A program made the position numbers and the translations under genes. Positions 17,621-27,724 of a stretch of 33,798 nucleotides of DNA are shown here, one piece after another. The notes beneath the pieces were generated by a model, which was not told where the DNA came from, searched no databases, and was given only the letters and a program-made list of their open reading frames with translations. The stretch comes from a virus. Location of the stretch: positions 1 to 33,798 of IMG/VR virus record IMGVR_UViG_3300031999_000114; one strand, given 5' to 3'. How positions within the stretch are numbered: the stretch's first letter is position 1; each line of letters opens with the position of its first letter.

Positions 17621-18055
17621 GTGCAAAGCAGAGCCCCAGTACGGCAGTCGTCCTACGCCTTTCCGGGCAGGCCGACCCGTCCCCTTGCCCGTCGCCGCTG
17701 CCGCATCTGTGGCGCTGTCCTGGCCCGTGACCGTCCCGCCTCGGCGACCGCCTGCTCCTGCCATCCCGGCGGGAACGAACCCTACAACCCCCGCCAGGAC
17801 AAGCACCTGGACGAGCATGTGCTCGTCGTGCTGCTCTGCATGGAGGCGGTCAGCGTGGCGCGCAAGCTGGACACCAAAGATCACAAGGCGATCTTCTACG
17901 CCGTGCGCCGGCTGCGCCAGAAGGGGTGGGTGATTGAGGGAATCCCTGGTGTCGGGCATCAGTTAATCGGCTTCCTGCACCACGATCCAGCGGCATTGCG
18001 GCGGGCGGCAGACTACCTGGAAGCCTCGGACTGCGATAGAATGGAGAGCACATGA
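17621..18055 (+). CDS. Zinc-ribbon plus winged-helix-like protein
   Basis: 144 residues, GTG start with no clear ribosome site but TAGGCT at exactly -12 to -7, suggesting another leaderless start. A basic N-terminus (RPTRPLARRR) is followed by CRICGAVLARDRPASATACSC, a C4-type ribbon. Then comes a winged-helix-like half (HVLVVLLCMEAVSVARKLDT, IFYAVRRLRQKGWVIEGIPG). It is a structural cousin of the 15298 product. Likely DNA-binding; its place after the integrase would suit a regulator or recombination accessory, which is inference. Confidence 0.55.
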   Translation: MQSRAPVRQSSYAFPGRPTRPLARRRCRICGAVLARDRPASATACSCHPGGNEPYNPRQDKHLDEHVLVVLLCMEAVSVARKLDTKDHKAIFYAVRRLRQKGWVIEGIPGVGHQLIGFLHHDPAALRRAADYLEASDCDRMEST

Positions 18056-18273
18056 GCGACGAATCGAAGACTGCATGCGCCATCCAGGTGGCACCGGATG
18101 GTGAGTTGCGTGTGTGTGGGACGTGCCACTGGTGCGGCTATTTCTTTGAAGGGCACACATGTGACCATCCGACCCACATGAGAAAGTCGTTGGATTACGG
18201 CAGCCTCAGTGACGCGCCGGTGTCCATTCACAATACCTGCGAATGTTGGAAGGTGTGGGGAAAGGGGACATGA
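18052..18273 (+). CDS. Cys-rich small protein
   Basis: 73 residues. CGTCHWCGYFFEGHTCDHP in the middle and NTCECWKVW at the end give about seven Cys and three His, enough for one or two metal sites. ATGA overlap with the previous gene and overlap with the next. No family recognised. Confidence 0.6.
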   Translation: MSDESKTACAIQVAPDGELRVCGTCHWCGYFFEGHTCDHPTHMRKSLDYGSLSDAPVSIHNTCECWKVWGKGT

Positions 18274-18464
18274 CCGACGCTGAGTTCACGCAGCTCTGCG
18301 GCACCATCCTGAGGGGCGTCAGCCTGCTGACTGCCTGCGATTCGCTCGGCCTTGATGTGCGTGAGGTGCTCACCCAGGTCGAGGAAGACCCGCGCCTGCT
18401 CTGTGACCTCTACTCAGCCATGGTGCTGCGCGCCCACATGTCGGAGCGGGTGCCCGCCGAGTAG
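18270..18464 (+). CDS. Small HTH protein, terminase-small-subunit-like
   Basis: 64 residues. ILRGVSLLTACDSLGLDVRE followed by VLTQVEEDPRLLCDLYSAMV resembles the N-terminal HTH of several phage small terminases (pattern G-x-S-L-x-x-A-C ... W-x-x-x-D-P-x-x-x-x-x-Y-x-x-A). A short DNA-binding protein of the packaging module is therefore plausible, but the better small-terminase candidate is at 19767. Its TAG stop is the first triplet of the repeated start-associated motif. Confidence 0.5.
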   Translation: MTDAEFTQLCGTILRGVSLLTACDSLGLDVREVLTQVEEDPRLLCDLYSAMVLRAHMSERVPAE

Positions 18465-18496
18465 GGAATAGGCCCCCTGCCATGCTTGAGTGCATG
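18462..18496 (+). repeat. Start-associated motif, copy 1
   Basis: TAGGGAATAGG, 8 bases, CATGCT, 7 bases, ATG. Contains a perfect 7-bp inverted repeat, GCCATGC-TTGAGT-GCATGGC (18479-18498), whose right arm includes the start codon at 18494. Confidence 0.8.
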
Positions 18497-19777: not shown

Positions 19778-20117
19778 ACTCATCATCCTCGATCTCACCG
19801 AACTTGAGAAGTTGGCGGCGATGCACTGCACGCAGCGCGAGGTTGCGGCCTGGTTCGGTGTCACGCACAAGACCATCTCCTACAAGTTGCGCCAGAAGGT
19901 CTACGCCGAAGTCTGGGAGCGTGGCTGGGCGAAGGGCAACATCAGCCTGCGCCGGCAGCAAGCTCAGCGTGCTGAGGCGGGCGATCGCACGATGCTCGTC
20001 TGGCTCGGCAAGCAGTGGTTGGGGCAGGCCGACAAGCAGGAGATCACCCACCTGACACTTGACACCATCGAAGCTGAGGTAGCTCGTCTTGAACGCGAAC
20101 TTGCCCGGAACGATTGA
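19767..20117 (+). CDS. terS: Small terminase subunit-like HTH protein
   Basis: 116 residues, GTG start overlapping the methyltransferase stop. CTQREVAAWFGVTHKTISYK is a clear helix-turn-helix, followed by SLRRQQAQRAEAGDRTMLVW and LGKQWLGQADK, a combination typical of small terminase-type proteins encoded just before the large subunit. It would recognise the packaging site and bring in the ATPase. A GAAGAAGG sequence lies upstream of the GTG. The 18270 product is an alternative or additional DNA-recognition subunit. Confidence 0.7.
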   Translation: MAHKLIILDLTELEKLAAMHCTQREVAAWFGVTHKTISYKLRQKVYAEVWERGWAKGNISLRRQQAQRAEAGDRTMLVWLGKQWLGQADKQEITHLTLDTIEAEVARLERELARND

Positions 20118-21528
20118 CGCGCGGCATCTCGCCGACATCAGTCGACGACTCAGGGCGTTACGCGAGGCGGTGCCGCCTGTAGAACCGCCCTCCGTCCGCC
20201 TGTTCGTCGAGCGCTGCACCATCGTCGAGAAGGAGAGCGGCGACCTGCTGCCCTTCACACTGTGGCCGGCGCAGGTCGAGGCGCTGGAGACGATCATCGG
20301 TGCCGACTACCTGGTAGCGGTCAAGGGTCGCCAAGTCGGTATGACCTCGCTCGAGCTGGCCGCCATGCTGTGGGCGGCGACCTTCTGGCCAAACCGTCTC
20401 TTCCTCATCGCTCGCCAGTCGCTCGACTACGCGCAGGATGCCATCCGCCGCCTGCGCATACTGCGCCTTCGCCTGCCTGACCATTTCCGCGAGCCGGTCA
20501 CGCAGGAGACAACCATGGTGATGCAGTTCGCCAACGGGTCGCGCTTCGAGGCGCTGACAGCCACGCAGGAGATCGGCCGCGGACTGGCTGCCTACTGGAC
20601 GCTGGCAGATGAGGCGGCCTTCTGGCCGTGGCCCGACATACAGATTCCAGTGCTCGAGGCTGGCTCGGCACGGATGCACATCGTCTCGACCGGCCATGGA
20701 CCTGGCGACACGCTGCACCGTATCTGGCGCAAGGCGAACCTCGGTGAGGGACTCTATACGCCGCTCTTCATCCCGTCGTCAGCAGACGCACGGCGTACGT
20801 CTGAGTGGCGCCGGCGCAACGTCGACGAGGCGGCGGAGCCGCGCCTTGCCCAGCGCGAGTATGCCGAGACGCCCGAGGATGCGTTCGCCTCGCCAGAGGG
20901 TGTCTTCTTCGAGCGCTTCGATGCGCTCCGTAACGTGGCCGAGCTCCAAGTCGTCCCCAATTGGCAGACCGTACGCGCCGTCGACTTCGGCTACCGTTTC
21001 GCTGCCTGTCTGTGGCTGCAGAGCTCGCCAGCAGGGCAACCGTTCGTGGTGGCTGAGTTGGCCCCCAAGGACTGTACGACCGACGAGTTCGCCGCTGAGA
21101 TCAAGCGCGTGGATGCTAGTCTGGGCCTGGCTATCGCTCCCTCACGCACCTACTGCGACCCCGCCGGCAATGCCGCCAATGTGCAGACGGCACAGAGTGA
21201 GGTGCAGATCCTGCGTGCCGCCGGCCTGCTACCGATTAGCAGACCATCCTCGATCCGCGACGGCTGTGTGCGCGTCATGGCGGCGCTCGCTGATCCAGTC
21301 CTGCCGCTGGTCGTCTCGCGTTCCTGCCCACATCTGGTTGAGGCCCTGTCCAACGTGCGCCCCGACAAGCACCGCCCCGACCTCTACGACGAGACGAGCG
21401 ATTACTGCCACATCCTCGACGCCCTGCGCTACTGGTCAGTGAATCGTTCGGCAGCGGGAACTGTGCACTCCTCGCCCATCGCCGGCGGTCGCCCGATCAC
21501 CGCCGGCCTGGTCGGCCGTCAGTTCTAG
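20089..21528 (+). CDS. terL: Large terminase subunit (packaging ATPase-nuclease)
   Basis: 479 residues. The ATPase domain has VAVKGRQVGMTSLELA (Walker A variant, Lys79 to Thr86), FLIARQSLDYAQDAIRRL and YWTLADEAAFWP (Asp174, Glu175, Walker B). The RNase-H-like nuclease domain has RAVDFGYRFAACLW (Asp299), YCDPAGN near 350, and SDYCHILDALRY (Asp444). It drives DNA into the prohead and cuts it at start and end. TTG at 20089 has GAGGT eight bases upstream and overlaps the small subunit; TTG at 20101 is an alternative. Ends in TAG, followed by copy 2 of the start-associated motif. Confidence 0.92.
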   Translation: MNANLPGTIDARHLADISRRLRALREAVPPVEPPSVRLFVERCTIVEKESGDLLPFTLWPAQVEALETIIGADYLVAVKGRQVGMTSLELAAMLWAATFWPNRLFLIARQSLDYAQDAIRRLRILRLRLPDHFREPVTQETTMVMQFANGSRFEALTATQEIGRGLAAYWTLADEAAFWPWPDIQIPVLEAGSARMHIVSTGHGPGDTLHRIWRKANLGEGLYTPLFIPSSADARRTSEWRRRNVDEAAEPRLAQREYAETPEDAFASPEGVFFERFDALRNVAELQVVPNWQTVRAVDFGYRFAACLWLQSSPAGQPFVVAELAPKDCTTDEFAAEIKRVDASLGLAIAPSRTYCDPAGNAANVQTAQSEVQILRAAGLLPISRPSSIRDGCVRVMAALADPVLPLVVSRSCPHLVEALSNVRPDKHRPDLYDETSDYCHILDALRYWSVNRSAAGTVHSSPIAGGRPITAGLVGRQF

Positions 21529-21544: not shown

Positions 21545-21578
21545 TAGGGAACAGGCCCTCCGCCACACTAGTGGCATG
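21545..21578 (+). repeat. Start-associated motif, copy 2
   Basis: TAGGGAACAGG, 8 bases, CACACT, 6 bases, ATG. Contains the inverted repeat GCCAC-ACTA-GTGGC just before the ATG. The frame from this ATG reads MSILTRLLGG and runs into the coiled-coil gene. Confidence 0.85.
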
Positions 21579-21794
21579 AGTATCCTCACCCGTCTGCTAG
21601 GAGGCATCATGGCAACAGTCGACATCACCCTGCTACGCAACCGTGTCAAGGCCCTGGAGATGGCGAAGACCGCCGACGAGGCGAAGATCGCCACTCTGGA
21701 AGCCCGGCCGGTGTCGGTCGATACGAGCGCGACCATCGCCGCCTTGGCGGCGCGCGTCGCCGCCATCGAAGCGGAGCTGGCAAACCCTTCCTGA
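21576..21794 (+). CDS. Short coiled-coil protein, possible N-terminal part of a tailspike
   Basis: 72 residues from the motif ATG at 21576, or 61 from the in-frame ATG at 21609, which has a strong TAGGAGG site. The longer start reads MSILTRLLGG, much like the portal's MSMFTRLRGL. ITLLRNRVKALEMAKTADEA and IAALAARVAAIEAELA are heptad repeats, so a trimeric coiled coil is likely. The gene ends two codons after AAACCCT, a slippery heptamer that could pass ribosomes into the downstream beta-helix frame. Alone it may be a small structural or trimerisation protein. Confidence 0.6.
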   Translation: MSILTRLLGGIMATVDITLLRNRVKALEMAKTADEAKIATLEARPVSVDTSATIAALAARVAAIEAELANPS

Positions 21795-21825
21795 CCCCAC
21801 CGCCAATCCCACCGACGGTGATGGG
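21782..21825 (+). promoter_or_regulatory. Candidate -1 programmed ribosomal frameshift site
   Basis: A-AAC-CCT at 21782-21788 fits X-XXY-YYZ in the zero frame of the coiled-coil gene. A 6-base spacer (which holds the TGA) is followed by a stem: CCC and CACCG (21795-21802) pair with CGGTG and GGG (21816-21820, 21823-21825) around a 13-base loop with a 2-base bulge. Slipping back one base enters the beta-helix frame, which is open from here. Confidence 0.5.
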
Positions 21826-22633
21826 GCACACGGTGCTGCGTGACGTTCACGACAAGGTATTCGAGAACGTGACGTTCGATGGCGCGGGCGGCGGGAACCC
21901 CGACTCGTCCGGCGTCCTCGAACTATGGGGTGCCTGCTACAACCTGAGGTTCACCGCCATCACCATCAATCCGAACAGAGATGCAATCGGAAGCGGTGTC
22001 ATGATCGCCGATTCCGGCAGGGGTATGCATGACATCGTTTTCGAGACCCCGCACATCATGACGCAGCCCTTCATGGGTTTCGTCTGCAATGCCCGTTGCA
22101 GTAGTAACGGCTACCAGCGCGTCGACCTCGTCAACGCCATAATCGAGCCGCAAGGCTCGGAGGCCGTCTCTTACGACGATACCTCTGGCACCGCCGGTCA
22201 TTGTCTCGTTGAGAACAACCTTGTCAAGGGCGGCGGGTTAACGACGCTCTATCCATACGGCCAGGGCTTCGAGATCAACGGCGTCCACGACATGGTGGTT
22301 AGACGTAACACCTTTGCTGCCTGTCGCGGTGCCATCCTCAACCTGCAGATGCACGATACGCGCGACTGCGGCTGGGTCTTTGAGGATAACGTCGTCGACC
22401 AGTCGCAGGCCTATGGCGGGGTCATCGTCGGCGTATCCCAGGCCGTGGGAGCCGCCAATGTCTACGGCGGCCGGTTCGCACGCAACACGATCATCGGAGC
22501 GGCCCCGAGCCGGGGTGTCGCCTTCCTGAACGGCTGCCACGACATGGATTGGCGCACGACCATCTGGCGGGATGCACGTGGCGGCAACTACGCGATCCCA
22601 TACCAGACTGGCTGCGTCGGGAATCTATTCTAA
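21821..22633 (+). CDS. Beta-helix protein, putative tailspike or appendage
   Basis: 270 residues from the ATG at 21821 (GTG at 21818 also possible). Repeated short strands of the right-handed parallel beta-helix type are visible: VFENVTFDG, HDIVFETPHIM, HCLVENNLVKGG, HDMVVRRNTFAACRGAIL, WVFEDNVVDQS, ARNTIIGAAP. This is the fold of pectate-lyase-like phage spikes that bind or cut host polysaccharide; no catalytic triad can be named. No ribosome site precedes the start. The frame is open upstream back to a slippery heptamer in the coiled-coil gene, with a proline-rich link (TPPPIPPTV), so it may be made as the C-terminal part of a fusion. It lies between terminase and portal, an unusual place for an appendage. 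Confidence 0.65.
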   Translation: MGHTVLRDVHDKVFENVTFDGAGGGNPDSSGVLELWGACYNLRFTAITINPNRDAIGSGVMIADSGRGMHDIVFETPHIMTQPFMGFVCNARCSSNGYQRVDLVNAIIEPQGSEAVSYDDTSGTAGHCLVENNLVKGGGLTTLYPYGQGFEINGVHDMVVRRNTFAACRGAILNLQMHDTRDCGWVFEDNVVDQSQAYGGVIVGVSQAVGAANVYGGRFARNTIIGAAPSRGVAFLNGCHDMDWRTTIWRDARGGNYAIPYQTGCVGNLF

Positions 22634-22645
22634 GGCAGGAGCGAC

Positions 22646-23347
22646 ATGGCAATAGCAGAGGTTGGCAACGCGACCAGCAAGGCATCCTCCACCACGCCCA
22701 CCATCACACACGGGCTGACCATTCTGGCGGGACATGTGATCATCGTCTGCCTCCACTGTGACGGCGTCTCGCCCACCTCCGACCCAGCCGATAATAACGG
22801 AGCGACCCCATTCACGCTCGCCTATCAGGCCGGGACGCCCGACACGAGCCGCTACAGCATCTGGTATCGCGTCGCCGGGTCCGGCGAACCCGCCACCTAT
22901 AAGTGGACAAAAACCAGCGCCAGCGGCTGGTCCATCGCGCTGCGTGTCTTCTCGGGCGTTGATGCCACTGTCTGGGACGTGACGCCAGGGGCGGACACTG
23001 GCGCGACCGGAACAAGCGCCTCACCGAGTGCACCATCCGTCACGATAACTACCGATGGTTCGCTGGGCATCGCGGCGTTCTTCGTCGACTCGTCTAGTCT
23101 GACGTTTTCTTCACCGACCAACGACTACGGGAGCGAGGTCGAGCCTGTGGCCGGCGGTCGTAACGAGGCGTGCTACACCAAGCCCGCACTGGCCCCAGGA
23201 GCAACCGGGGCCACTGGCGTCACCATGTCCGGCTCGGACGACTGGGCGGCACAACAGTTCGCGCTCAAGCCTGACGGTTCTACTTTCATCCCCACCCGCT
23301 CAGGCGGTGCGGGCATCGGTTCTGGAATCGCGACCGCCATCCTGTGA
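22646..23347 (+). CDS. Phage structural or appendage protein, beta-rich
   Basis: 233 residues, GGCAGGAG before the ATG. SIWYRVAGSGEPATYKWT and GWSIALRVFSGVDATVWDV match a beta-sandwich module frequent in phage tail and decoration proteins of high-GC hosts. GSLGIAAFFVDSSSLTFSSP and the Gly/Ala/Thr-rich end (GATGATGVTMSGSDDWAAQQ) also fit. No signal peptide or enzyme motif. Its position in the appendage cluster suggests a fibre-associated protein. Confidence 0.55.
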   Translation: MAIAEVGNATSKASSTTPTITHGLTILAGHVIIVCLHCDGVSPTSDPADNNGATPFTLAYQAGTPDTSRYSIWYRVAGSGEPATYKWTKTSASGWSIALRVFSGVDATVWDVTPGADTGATGTSASPSAPSVTITTDGSLGIAAFFVDSSSLTFSSPTNDYGSEVEPVAGGRNEACYTKPALAPGATGATGVTMSGSDDWAAQQFALKPDGSTFIPTRSGGAGIGSGIATAIL

Positions 23348-23355
23348 GGTGAGTG

Positions 23356-25092
23356 ATGGAGTTCAGACGCACTAAGAATGTCGATACCAGGGTGGTGTTC
23401 CCGATCCAGAAGACGGACGGCACGTTCATCACCGGAGCCACCGGGCTCGACTCGGAATACGCCCTGCTGGGAGCACACGGCGGGGCGGCCCCTACGTGGA
23501 CCGACTGCACCCACGAGGCGACGGAGATAGGCACGACCGGGATGTACTACCTGGACGTGAGCGCCGCTGAGCTCAACGACGATTACGCCGCCATCCAGAT
23601 CAAGTCGACCAGCACGGGGGCGATCACGCAGGTCCTGCTGTTCAACCTCACCAACCAGCCCTCCGATGTCATCAACTGGAAGGGCAGTGCGGCGGCGGCC
23701 CTCACCGGCGACCCCTACGCAGAAGCGGCGGCCGTCCATGCGCATGTGAACACCATCGACGGCCACATCACGGCCGACTACGGCTCCACCGAGAAGACCT
23801 GCATCGACCTGCTTGACGATGCCAACGGCCTCGTGAACATCCACGACACGGTGGACACCGTGGCTGGTTACATCGACACCGAAGTGGGCGCCATCAAGAC
23901 GCAGACCGACAAACTCGCCTTCACGGTCGCCAACCAGGTCGACGCCAACGTGCTCGACTGGAAGGGTGGGACGGCTCCCGCCATGACCGGCGACGCCTAC
24001 GCTCGCCTCGGAGCACCTGCCGGCGCCTCAGTCTCGGCGGATGTGGCGGCGGTCAAGGGCGACACGGCGGCCGTCAAGACCAAGACCGACAACCTGCCAG
24101 CGAGTCCGGCGGCCGTCGGCTCGGCCATGACACTGGCTGCCGGCGCGATCACCGCCGCCGTGGTGGCCACCGACGCCATCGACGACGACGCCATAGCCAC
24201 CGGAGCGATCGCCTCCACGGCCTTCGCCGCGGGCGCGATCACCGCCGCCGCCATCGCCGACAACGCCATCGACTTCGCCACCTTCGCCGCCGACTGCAAG
24301 ACCGGCGCCGGCTTGAAGGCCAACGTCGAGTCGGTCACCGCCGCGGCGATTACCGCCGCGGCTATAGCGGCCGACGCGATCGGAGCCAGCGAGCTGGCGG
24401 CGGATGCGGTGGCCGAGATCGCCGACCAGGTCTGGGACGAGGCGATCGCAGGCCATGCCGGCGCGGGCAGTACGGGCCTGGCTCTGGCCGGCGCCTCCGC
24501 ACCGACTGCGAATGCCGTGGCTGACCAGGTGTGGGACGAAGTGCTCGCTGGCCACGCCGGAGTCGGTAGCACCGGCGAGGCGCTGGCTAGTGCCGGCGCG
24601 GCCGGCGATCCGTGGAACACATTGCTCCCGGGCGCCTACGGAGCGGGCAAGGCTGGCAAGATCGTCGGCGACAACATCAACGCGCCACTGGCGACCATCG
24701 ACACGGTGGTCGATGCCATCAAGGCAAAGACCGACACCATCGGCGCGGGCACCGTCACCGTCACCAGCCCGGTGGCCAGTGACGGTGTGACCGTCACGAC
24801 CTACCGCGGCGACGACTACAAGCAGCACGAGGGGCGCGAGATTCGCTGGCTGATTGCCACGCCGGACCTCTCCACAGCGGTCACGACACTGCATGTCGGC
24901 AGTCTCGATATCGTCTGCACCCTGGTCGACGGTGGCCTGGCGACGCAGTCTATCTATGCGGAGCTCACCGCGGTCCAGACGGCGACACTTCTTGAGGCAC
25001 GTGGTCTCTACAGCGTCACGGCTGCCATGGCCGATGCCGACGTGCGCACCCTGGTGGTCGGCGAGTGGAAGTCTGAGATTCGGGTGGCCTAA
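23356..25092 (+). CDS. Tail-fibre-like repeat protein
   Basis: 578 residues. The N-terminal 100 residues (VVFPIQKTDGTFITGATGL ... TTGMYYLDVSAAELN) form a beta domain seen in phage fibre proteins. Two kinds of repeats follow: a W-K-G ... TGD-x-YA unit near residues 106-126 and 201-220, and a DQVWDE(A/V)(I/L)AGHAGxGSTG unit near 357 and 392. Between them is an Ala/Ile/Asp-rich stretch (AAVVATDAIDDDAIATGAIA) resembling a helical or beta-prism fibre shaft. The C-terminal 130 residues return to a globular beta domain (YRGDDYKQHEGREIRWLIA). GAGGTGAG precedes the ATG at 23356. Confidence 0.65.
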   Translation: MEFRRTKNVDTRVVFPIQKTDGTFITGATGLDSEYALLGAHGGAAPTWTDCTHEATEIGTTGMYYLDVSAAELNDDYAAIQIKSTSTGAITQVLLFNLTNQPSDVINWKGSAAAALTGDPYAEAAAVHAHVNTIDGHITADYGSTEKTCIDLLDDANGLVNIHDTVDTVAGYIDTEVGAIKTQTDKLAFTVANQVDANVLDWKGGTAPAMTGDAYARLGAPAGASVSADVAAVKGDTAAVKTKTDNLPASPAAVGSAMTLAAGAITAAVVATDAIDDDAIATGAIASTAFAAGAITAAAIADNAIDFATFAADCKTGAGLKANVESVTAAAITAAAIAADAIGASELAADAVAEIADQVWDEAIAGHAGAGSTGLALAGASAPTANAVADQVWDEVLAGHAGVGSTGEALASAGAAGDPWNTLLPGAYGAGKAGKIVGDNINAPLATIDTVVDAIKAKTDTIGAGTVTVTSPVASDGVTVTTYRGDDYKQHEGREIRWLIATPDLSTAVTTLHVGSLDIVCTLVDGGLATQSIYAELTAVQTATLLEARGLYSVTAAMADADVRTLVVGEWKSEIRVA

Positions 25093-25095
25093 AAG

Positions 25096-25130
25096 TAGGG
25101 AACAGGGGTTCCCGCAGACTTGTGGACATG
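25096..25130 (+). repeat. Start-associated motif, copy 3
   Basis: TAGGGAACAGG, 8 bases, CAGACT, 7 bases, ATG (portal start, 25128). Its 5' half is itself an inverted repeat, GGGAAC-AGGG-GTTCCC. It shares AAAGTAGGGAACAGG with copy 4. Confidence 0.85.
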
Positions 25131-27413
25131 AGCATGTTCACGCGGCTGCGGGGCCTCTTCCTCGCCGAGAAACCGAAGGGCATATCACGTCCGGCGACCG
25201 CTGAGGTCGGCGACACCGGCATGGGGTATGCCGTCGGCTCCGGCACCACTAAGGGCGCCGTCTCCAAGCGTCTGCGCACGCTCGAGCAGAACTGGGAACT
25301 CTACGAGCGCAACGGGTACATCCTCTACGACCGCATGCGCTTCTCGGATCCGAAGGTCGCCGGCCTGTTGCGTGCCATGCGCCTGCCGATCCTCGGCGCC
25401 CAAGTCTCCATCGAACCCTCAGATCCCGAGGATGAACGCGCCAAGGAGATCGCCGAGTTCGTCTCGGACAACCTCTTGGGAGGTCTCGCCGACTCCTGGC
25501 GGGCGACCCTCTATCAGTTCCTGCTCTACCTCTGTCACGGCTTCGCCCCGTTCGAGATGGTGTGGAAGATCGAGGACGGCAAGGCACTCATCGATCGCTT
25601 CGCCTACCGTCCGCCAGCCACCATCGCCACCAGAGACATCTTCGTCGCCAACGGTCGCATCGAGCACGTCCACCAGTCCACCGACACCGGCTTCCAGGCC
25701 GACATCCCCGGCGAGAAGCTGCTGTGGTTCGTCAACGACCGCGAGGGCGACGACTTCTGCGGCCGGGCGCTGTTGCGGCCCATGTTCAAGCCGTGGTTCG
25801 GCAAGGAGAAGCTCGAGATCCTGCTGCTGATCGCCGCCGACCGCGGCAACGGCACGCCGGTGGTCATCGCCCCCGAAGGCGGTTGGGGCACCGACACCAG
25901 CGGCAACGCGCTCGGTCCCCAGGTTGATGACGCCCTGGCCGCTTTCTCCACCTCCGAGAGAGGCTTTTTCCACTTCCCCTTCGGCACGACATTCACGCTG
26001 GAAACCTCGAACGCCTCGATCGCCGAGCTGACGGCGCTCAAGGCCAACTTCGAGATGGACATGAGCAACGTCGCCATCGCGCAGGTGCTCGACCTGGGCA
26101 AGACCGAGACCGGCAGCCGCGCTCTGGGCCGCACGATGAGCGACATGTTCCTCGACTCGCTGATCGCCATCGCAGTCGACGTGGAGGACACGATCAACGC
26201 GAAGGGCGGGCCGATACATCAGCTGGTGGCCTACAACTTCGCCGGCGCCGACGACCTGATGCCCTCACTGCGCTTCGGCTCACTGTCGAAGATCGATCTC
26301 AAGACGCTGGCGCTCGCCTTCCTCCAGCTGCAGCAGACCGGCATGCCGTTCGGCGAGGAGACCTGGGAGTGGATTCGTTCGGAGCTCGACCTGCCACCGC
26401 TCAAGGCTGAGGAAGCGACCGGAAGTCCGCAGCAACCGTTGCTGCCCGATGCGCGCTTGCCCGCGCCCGAAGTGCCACCTGAACCACCACCGACACCGAC
26501 CCCGCCAGGGCAATCACCGCCAGGACAAACACCGCCGCAGCCAGTCCCGCCGGCGCAGGCTTCCGAAATCGTGCTCGCCGAGAAGCACTACTGGCGAGAA
26601 CCCCGCGGACCTGAGCTCTACGCCGACCTGGCTGATATCGGCGCGCGCCTTGATGCCGCGCCGGCTGCACTGCGCACCGCCACACAGACAGCCCGCGAGG
26701 GCATGGTCGCCGAGCTCGTGCGCCGCGCGCAGGCAGCCATCGCGAGCGGCGATGTGGCCAAGGTCGCCGCGCTGGCGCAGGCCAAGCCGCCGATGGTCGA
26801 CAAACTGACCGCCGCCGTGCGTGGCGTTCTGCATGAGGCAGCCGCCGCCGGCGCCGCTCAGGTACGCGACGAGCTGGCCCGCCAGAAGGCCGGCACGCCG
26901 GTGGTCGAGCAGGCCATCGCCGAACGCCAGGGTACGAGCGTGCAGGCTGCGCAGCGTAAGCCTCCAAAGAAGACAGCGCCGCCCACCTGGGCTGAGGATC
27001 TGAATGCCTACATCGACGCACAGGCGGATGTCACGGCGCGGCAGATCGCCTCTGTCACGCAGGCAGCCCTGGCCGCTGAGGCGATGCGCGGTCTGGCGAC
27101 GAAGGTGAGTGCCGATGCACTCACCGCCATGGTCACGCGCGCCAGTGACGAGGCCGCCCTGCGCGCCGGCCTGGTCGTCAGTCACATCATGGCAACCAGC
27201 CGCGCCGCTGAGGCGCTCGCCAACCGCGAGAAGATCAGCGTCGCCTTCTACTCCGCCATCCTCGACGACCGTACCTGCGGAGTCTGCGAGGAAGCCGACG
27301 GCCAGGAGACCACCGACCTCGACGAGGCGGCCGGCTGGACTCCCAACCCGGACTGTGACGGCGGCGCCAACTGCAGATGCGAAACCTTCTTCGAGCTGAA
27401 GGAAGGCGCCTGA
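25128..27413 (+). CDS. Portal protein fused to a MuF-like head-morphogenesis domain
   Basis: 761 residues. Residues about 50-430 match Mu-type (DUF935) portals: LYERNGYILYDRMRFSDPKV, YLCHGFAPFEMVWK, LLWFVNDREGDDFCGRALLR, KEKLEILLLIAADRGNGTPV, LDLGKTETGSRALG. A Pro/Gln linker (TPTPPGQSPPGQTPPQPVPP) follows near 465. The C-terminal 250 residues are helical and end with the MuF signature: SAILDDRTCGVCEEADGQE plus CDGGANCRC. Portal and MuF are normally separate genes, so this is a fusion. The start is placed at the ATG that ends motif copy 3, although the frame is open six bases upstream; no ribosome site is seen. Confidence 0.88.
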   Translation: MSMFTRLRGLFLAEKPKGISRPATAEVGDTGMGYAVGSGTTKGAVSKRLRTLEQNWELYERNGYILYDRMRFSDPKVAGLLRAMRLPILGAQVSIEPSDPEDERAKEIAEFVSDNLLGGLADSWRATLYQFLLYLCHGFAPFEMVWKIEDGKALIDRFAYRPPATIATRDIFVANGRIEHVHQSTDTGFQADIPGEKLLWFVNDREGDDFCGRALLRPMFKPWFGKEKLEILLLIAADRGNGTPVVIAPEGGWGTDTSGNALGPQVDDALAAFSTSERGFFHFPFGTTFTLETSNASIAELTALKANFEMDMSNVAIAQVLDLGKTETGSRALGRTMSDMFLDSLIAIAVDVEDTINAKGGPIHQLVAYNFAGADDLMPSLRFGSLSKIDLKTLALAFLQLQQTGMPFGEETWEWIRSELDLPPLKAEEATGSPQQPLLPDARLPAPEVPPEPPPTPTPPGQSPPGQTPPQPVPPAQASEIVLAEKHYWREPRGPELYADLADIGARLDAAPAALRTATQTAREGMVAELVRRAQAAIASGDVAKVAALAQAKPPMVDKLTAAVRGVLHEAAAAGAAQVRDELARQKAGTPVVEQAIAERQGTSVQAAQRKPPKKTAPPTWAEDLNAYIDAQADVTARQIASVTQAALAAEAMRGLATKVSADALTAMVTRASDEAALRAGLVVSHIMATSRAAEALANREKISVAFYSAILDDRTCGVCEEADGQETTDLDEAAGWTPNPDCDGGANCRCETFFELKEGA

Positions 27414-27724
27414 TGGCCTGCCGTAAGTGCGCCCTCTGCTGCCAGTGCATTCGCTTCAGCCTGCCGCCAGACGATGACCGCGAGCACTGGATGCGCCTTT
27501 TCGGGCTCATCGTCTCGCGCATGCCGAGCGGCCAGACCTCGGTCATCGTGCCCAAACGTTGCGACAACCTGGACCCGAAGACACTGCGCTGTCGCGACTA
27601 CGAGAACCGCCCGACCATCTGTCGGGAGTTCCTCTGCGATGAGGCCCGCAAGGAGGCCCCCGAAAGTAGGGAACAGGCCCCCGCGCAGACTGATGGCATG
27701 AGCGTGAATGAGGCAGGTAAGTGA
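27413..27724 (+). CDS. YkgJ-like cysteine-cluster protein
   Basis: 103 residues. CRKCALCCQC at 3-12, CDNLDPKTLRCRDYENRP and CREFLC further on give the CxxCCxxC ... C ... YxxRPxxCRxF pattern of the YkgJ/FliB-type zinc- or iron-sulfur-binding family, whose activity is poorly known. It overlaps the portal-MuF stop (TGATG) and sits between portal and protease, where it is an outsider. The last 20 codons are motif copy 4 in translation, so the native protein probably ended near DEARKEAPE and was extended by the motif. Confidence 0.75.
   Translation: MACRKCALCCQCIRFSLPPDDDREHWMRLFGLIVSRMPSGQTSVIVPKRCDNLDPKTLRCRDYENRPTICREFLCDEARKEAPESREQAPAQTDGMSVNEAGK
27667..27700 (+). repeat. Start-associated motif, copy 4
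   Basis: TAGGGAACAGG, 8 bases, CAGACT, 6 bases, ATG. It lies inside the 3' end of the YkgJ-like gene. Its ATG is in that gene's frame and is followed by eight codons and a TGA that overlaps the protease start (TGATG). Confidence 0.85.

Follow-up and report, generated by a model that had tools for sequence, protein, structure and literature searches.

Programmed -1 frameshifting probably joins two adjacent reading frames in a soil phage, one encoding a short coiled coil and the other a beta-helix, and would thereby make a trimeric coiled-coil/beta-helix spike of ~341 aa. The window, meaning the whole stretch of DNA that was analysed, is the entire virus record of 33,798 bases. It encodes a DnaB-like helicase, an integrase, a ParB/methylase gene, the large terminase, the portal, a Mu-like protease and the major capsid protein, with a tail tube protein at its right end, and this set of head, tail and integrase-type genes identifies it as part of a temperate tailed phage. 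A single relative was found, the separately assembled contig IMGVR_UViG_3300035688_000652 (loci L004, L005, L008, L010 and L012), with identities of about 97% for terminase and portal, 76% for the beta-helix and 71% for the coiled coil. The junction of the coiled coil and the beta-helix sits between the terminase and portal genes, and the features around it are as follows.

20089-21528, large terminase
21545-21579, + strand, promoter-like element TAGGGAACAGG...ACTAGTGGCATGA, upstream of the coiled-coil ORF
21576-21794, + strand, coiled-coil ORF, 72 aa from ATG 21576 or 61 aa from ATG 21609
21773-21776, + strand, GGAG, candidate upstream stimulator, 6 nt from the heptamer and identical in L004
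21782-21788, + strand, slippery heptamer A_AAC_CCT, in register and two codons from the ORF end
21792-21794, + strand, zero-frame stop TGA (TAA in the relative)
21795-21826, + strand, downstream hairpin CCCCA.CGCC ... GGTG.ATGGGG, beginning 6 nt past the heptamer
21795-21817, + strand, proline-rich linker, read in the -1 frame only
21818-22633, + strand, beta-helix ORF (first starts GTG 21818 and ATG 21821), spike body of the proposed fusion
25128-27413, portal

Proteins on the two sides of the junction

The coiled coil more likely starts at ATG 21609, which is preceded by an AGGAGG Shine-Dalgarno sequence, than at ATG 21576. Its AlphaFold2 model consists of helices 3-43 and 48-69 (mean pLDDT 85.7), each carrying an RhxxhE trimerization motif as defined in PMC5940361 (RVKALE and RVAAIE; RVKALE and RIAAIE in the relative), which is suggestive of a trimer. 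A PHROG match to a phosphodiesterase family covers the coiled coil alone and was not used.

For the beta-helix protein, the Pfam Beta_helix match (E 3.3e-4) falls below the curated cut-off. The AlphaFold2 model (pLDDT 68, pTM 0.73), built on an alignment of two sequences, has beta structure throughout from about residue 12 onwards, and its Foldseek neighbours include GH110 beta-helices, CBA120 TSP3, phi29 gp12 and annotated phage tail spikes, with a best PDB E of 2e-3. We assign it, with moderate confidence, the right-handed parallel beta-helix body of a beta-helix tailspike. The zero-frame helix of the coiled-coil model stops directly before the slip site, and the beta-helix begins about 10 residues later.

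The trimerization motifs together with the right-handed beta-helix fold make a coiled-coil/beta-helix spike sensible, as an earlier note on this DNA had proposed. Its term "tailspike" is uncertain, the gene residing in the head-module stretch between terminase and portal; from this placement, the spike may be attached to the head or neck rather than to the tail tip. The adhesin-like genes further downstream are not the same in the two phages, as 22646-25092 in the window and L010 4759-8620 in the relative hold unrelated genes between the beta-helix and the portal. With these genes swapped while terminase and portal stay 97% identical, the stretch following the beta-helix looks like an exchangeable adhesin cassette within the head module.

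Slip site, hairpin and reading frames

Read directly in the zero frame, the coiled-coil ORF ends GCA AAC CCT TCC TGA, and A_AAC_CCT is the sole in-frame X_XXY_YYZ heptamer within it, located where two open frames overlap, as in a frameshift cassette. A -1 shift at the heptamer leads into a frame open for 283 codons, via PFLTPPPIPPTV, to the end of the beta-helix protein at 22633, and the predicted fusion reads ...AELAN-P-FLTPPPIPPTV... across the junction (predicted junction-spanning peptide, AELANPFLTPPP / AELANPFLTPPPIPPT). The -1 frame is free of stops from 21569, where the upstream stop lies, to 22633 and contains no ATG, GTG or TTG before GTG 21818 and ATG 21821. As it is also open across the entire coiled-coil ORF in this GC-rich DNA, its openness upstream of the stop counts for little.

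The contig has 0.0019 in-frame X_XXY_YYZ heptamers per codon (~7,270 codons), which gives a chance of about 0.8% of meeting one in a given last-four-codon stretch. When the window and the relative were scanned mechanically on both strands for a heptamer at most 10 codons from a stop, combined with a -1 frame open for at least 200 codons, this junction was the only hit; a few genes elsewhere also end close to a heptamer, with a -1 frame open for about 60-100 codons.

The hairpin is C-rich, can be extended by G21793-C21827 and U21792-A21828 (to 21792-21828) and has a stability of -12.8 kcal/mol. On its own it is unremarkable in GC-rich DNA, being at the 17th percentile of the contig and no stronger than shuffled sequence (z -0.13), and its stability per nucleotide exceeds that of its 197-nt surroundings in both phages. 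Its position and stability satisfy the bacterial rules, i.e. a hairpin 4-10 nt past the motif, with a C-G closing pair followed by at least 3 pairs and at least 7.6 kcal/mol (PMC4066793), and the GGAG falls just at the limit of the 6-17 nt that the same study applied to upstream elements. Of the two stimulators by which a frameshift cassette is recognised, a structure at 4-10 nt or a Shine-Dalgarno-like element upstream, the junction carries candidates for both, with the hairpin no stronger than its shuffled counterparts. A 5-bp pseudoknot seen by eye, pairing CACCG 21810-21814 with CGGTG 21831-21835, was rejected since its connecting loop would not be long enough to bridge the stem.

Both of the first start codons of the beta-helix ORF, GTG 21818 and ATG 21821, are in the 3' arm of the hairpin and have the worst Shine-Dalgarno score among ~30 starts tested, in the window phage and the relative alike. 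Their duplex energies are +0.7 and -1.5 kcal/mol, compared with a background median of -3.5, -10.2 for the coiled coil and -8.2 kcal/mol for the next gene. The earlier note had already described the in-frame heptamer, a stem-loop 6 bases past it (given as 21795-21825), a -1 frame running through the proline-rich linker into the beta-helix, the missing ribosome site and the start codons within the stem, and all of these are borne out.

In the proposed mechanism, translation would initiate at ATG 21609 (or ATG 21576) and proceed through the trimerizing coiled coil, after which a fraction of the ribosomes would slip by -1 at A_AAC_CCT, with tRNA-Asn re-pairing from AAC to AAA and tRNA-Pro from CCU to CCC. 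The hairpin would probably assist the slip, and the GGAG upstream may do so too. Shifted ribosomes would pass the TGA two codons on and read the proline linker and then the beta-helix, yielding the ~341 aa spike and, in larger amounts, unfused coiled coil of ~61 aa. Cognate re-pairing of the A-site tRNA, as with CCU to CCC, is what most favours tandem -1 slippage in E. coli, and with a stimulator present C_CCU belongs to a group of six tetramers that clearly exceed background; CCN codons and heptamers with mixed X/Z (purine/pyrimidine) are weaker shifters (PMC4066793). By these E. coli rules we therefore expect a modest efficiency, with mostly free coiled coil and some fusion. In high-GC actinophages, annotated heptamers can have any base at each position (PMC10885494). 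That ribosomes slip here, how efficiently they would do so, that the chains would trimerize and that the spike would have its place in the virion as an adhesin is what we infer from the sequence. Transcriptional slippage was rejected as an origin of the shift, as there is no homopolymer run.

Comparison with the relative and competing explanations

The relative has the same frame split, spacing, hairpin and -1 openness, likewise lacks a Shine-Dalgarno sequence for the beta-helix ORF, and carries an identical heptamer at L004 3336-3342. Signal and frames are thus conserved in relatives as in a frameshift cassette, with n=1 relative. The stop codon keeps its position and changes from TGA to TAA, a difference that alters neither reading (a stop in the zero frame, Leu to Leu in the -1 frame), and the linker differs by a 3-nt indel, which keeps the -1 frame. 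From this comparison we favour selection acting on both frames. All stem pairs are kept in L004, where G21793-C21827 and G21802-U21819 are each replaced by A-U; in a simple simulation, the chance that three random stem substitutions spare every pair was about 5%, and the retention is no more than suggestive. A comparison of synonymous sites shows no change over the last 11 codons of the coiled coil, but the two phages are so close that this says little, and stretches of about 28 identical codons occur between the two terminases, so the identical stretch around the slip site is not exceptional.

Further relatives were sought among viral contigs (with the beta-helix protein and its alignment, the coiled coil, terminase, portal and DNA patterns), which returned L004 and L012 only, among genome contigs, which returned one distant Planctomycetota terminase and no further relative, and among annotated phages with spike, stalk and fusion, again with no further relative. 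The earlier note had looked to related phages for a conserved heptamer and stem, both of which are kept in the one relative, and had held that a continuous frame in them would speak against frameshifting; such a relative was sought in these searches and not found, the sole relative having the same split.

The main rival to frameshifting, to which we give roughly one chance in four, is termination-reinitiation, in which ribosomes would stop at the TGA ending at 21794 and restart 23-26 nt on at GTG 21818 or ATG 21821, making two proteins that may co-assemble. A ribosome released at the stop could reach both starts, which the relative likewise has as GTG-ATG, and as the beta-helix model begins at about residue 12, starting at V13/M14 would cost little. 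However, neither phage has a Shine-Dalgarno sequence here, in contrast to the neighbouring genes, the conserved hairpin encloses the start codons, and reinitiation leaves unexplained why a heptamer stands beside the stop, why the linker reads as proline-rich and why the 3-nt indel keeps the frame.

It is improbable that the two ORFs are independent, with a stand-alone coiled coil, a beta-helix ORF weakly expressed from a leaderless or unrecognised start and a coincidental heptamer. A rate of about 0.8% per gene end is not negligible over several dozen phage genes, and several other likely starts in the phage also have weak Shine-Dalgarno scores; yet the combined scan leaves the junction as the sole such case in both contigs, and no promoter-like element precedes the beta-helix ORF, whereas the coiled-coil ORF and the portal each have one.

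A sequencing error or a recent frame-breaking mutation in a normally continuous gene, attractive in that coiled coil, linker and beta-helix read like a natural single protein, is largely refuted and very unlikely, since a separately assembled contig with a spike 76% identical has exactly the same split with another stop codon.

Known recoding systems and the promoter-like element

Domains added to phage structural proteins by frameshifting are established (PMC5009743; PMC6669499), and the extended virion proteins include those of T3/T7 gene 10, Lactobacillus phage A2, Listeria phages A118/A500/PSA, the SPP1 major tail protein and lactococcal 936 TpeX. The proposed spike resembles them in that the zero frame would give a short product, to which frameshifting adds a C-terminal adhesin-type domain (PMC5009743; PMC6669499). 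In those cases, however, the unshifted protein belongs to the capsid or tail lattice and the added domain decorates it, whereas here the zero-frame product would be only a ~61 aa two-helix coiled coil, with no match to a lattice domain, and the shifted part the entire spike body. For the tail assembly chaperones G/GT, ribosomes similarly shift by -1 close to where a small gene ends and carry on in the following frame, and in high-GC phages many X_XXY_YYZ heptamers are used (PMC10885494), but the chaperone genes are placed between those of the major tail protein and the tape measure, whereas the present site is between terminase and portal, far from a tape measure, and encodes no chaperone. With IS3/IS911-type cassettes (PMC4066793) the junction shares a heptamer, a downstream hairpin at 4-10 nt and an upstream GGAG, and differs in its weaker CCN-type heptamer and in a product that would be structural rather than a transposase.

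Among trimeric spikes, CBA120 TSP3, the HK620 tailspike and phi29 gp12 likewise have a right-handed beta-helix and are among the structural neighbours, but here the body is short (~270 aa) and the stalk is in another frame. To our knowledge, all three are encoded in single continuous reading frames. No tailspike or fibre built by frameshifting came up in a literature search that covered few subscription papers. Frameshift-added virion domains are already known, and it is the joining of a trimerization stalk to a spike body in this manner that would be new; recoding in phage virion genes is known for chaperones and for lattice-protein decorations. If the spike is made only by frameshifting, adhesin dose would be set by ribosome slippage, a swappable adhesin body would be made dependent on a fixed stalk, and receptor-binding proteins of this sort would be expected to come out of gene calling as two separate "hypothetical" ORFs. 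It is a tentative, rather doubtful extension that stalk and body of a receptor-binding spike are joined by -1 frameshifting alone and that excess coiled-coil chains could mix into the trimers, setting the number of spike bodies per stalk.

Elsewhere in the window, G_GGA_AAG, a strong slippery heptamer in E. coli, occurs at 18255-18275, two codons ahead of the stop of ORF 18052-18273. This site, GGGGAAAGGGG near 18263, is one of the other gene ends that the scan picked up with a shorter open -1 frame; it was set aside as a frameshift site and most likely serves ribosome binding for the next gene, which overlaps the ORF.

The promoter-like element upstream of the coiled-coil ORF, of the form TAGGGAAYAGG...CANACTNGTGGCATGAG, has four copies in the window (18462-18496, 21545-21579, 25096-25131 and 27667-27701), with further copies at L009:7504 and at L010 2150-2184, 4720-4755 and 9583-9617 (- strand), and is kept in the relative. 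It precedes several late genes at a nearly constant ~30 nt ahead of the ATG, and a pattern search of the viral contigs found it in no phage beyond these two. With its GGGAAY box it resembles a phage promoter, and the starts behind it may be leaderless; the portal is without a clear Shine-Dalgarno sequence. The codons that follow the element are similar in the coiled-coil ORF (MSILTRLLGG, 21576-21608) and the portal (MSMFTRLRGLF, 25128-25160), as if promoter and gene start had been duplicated between the two.
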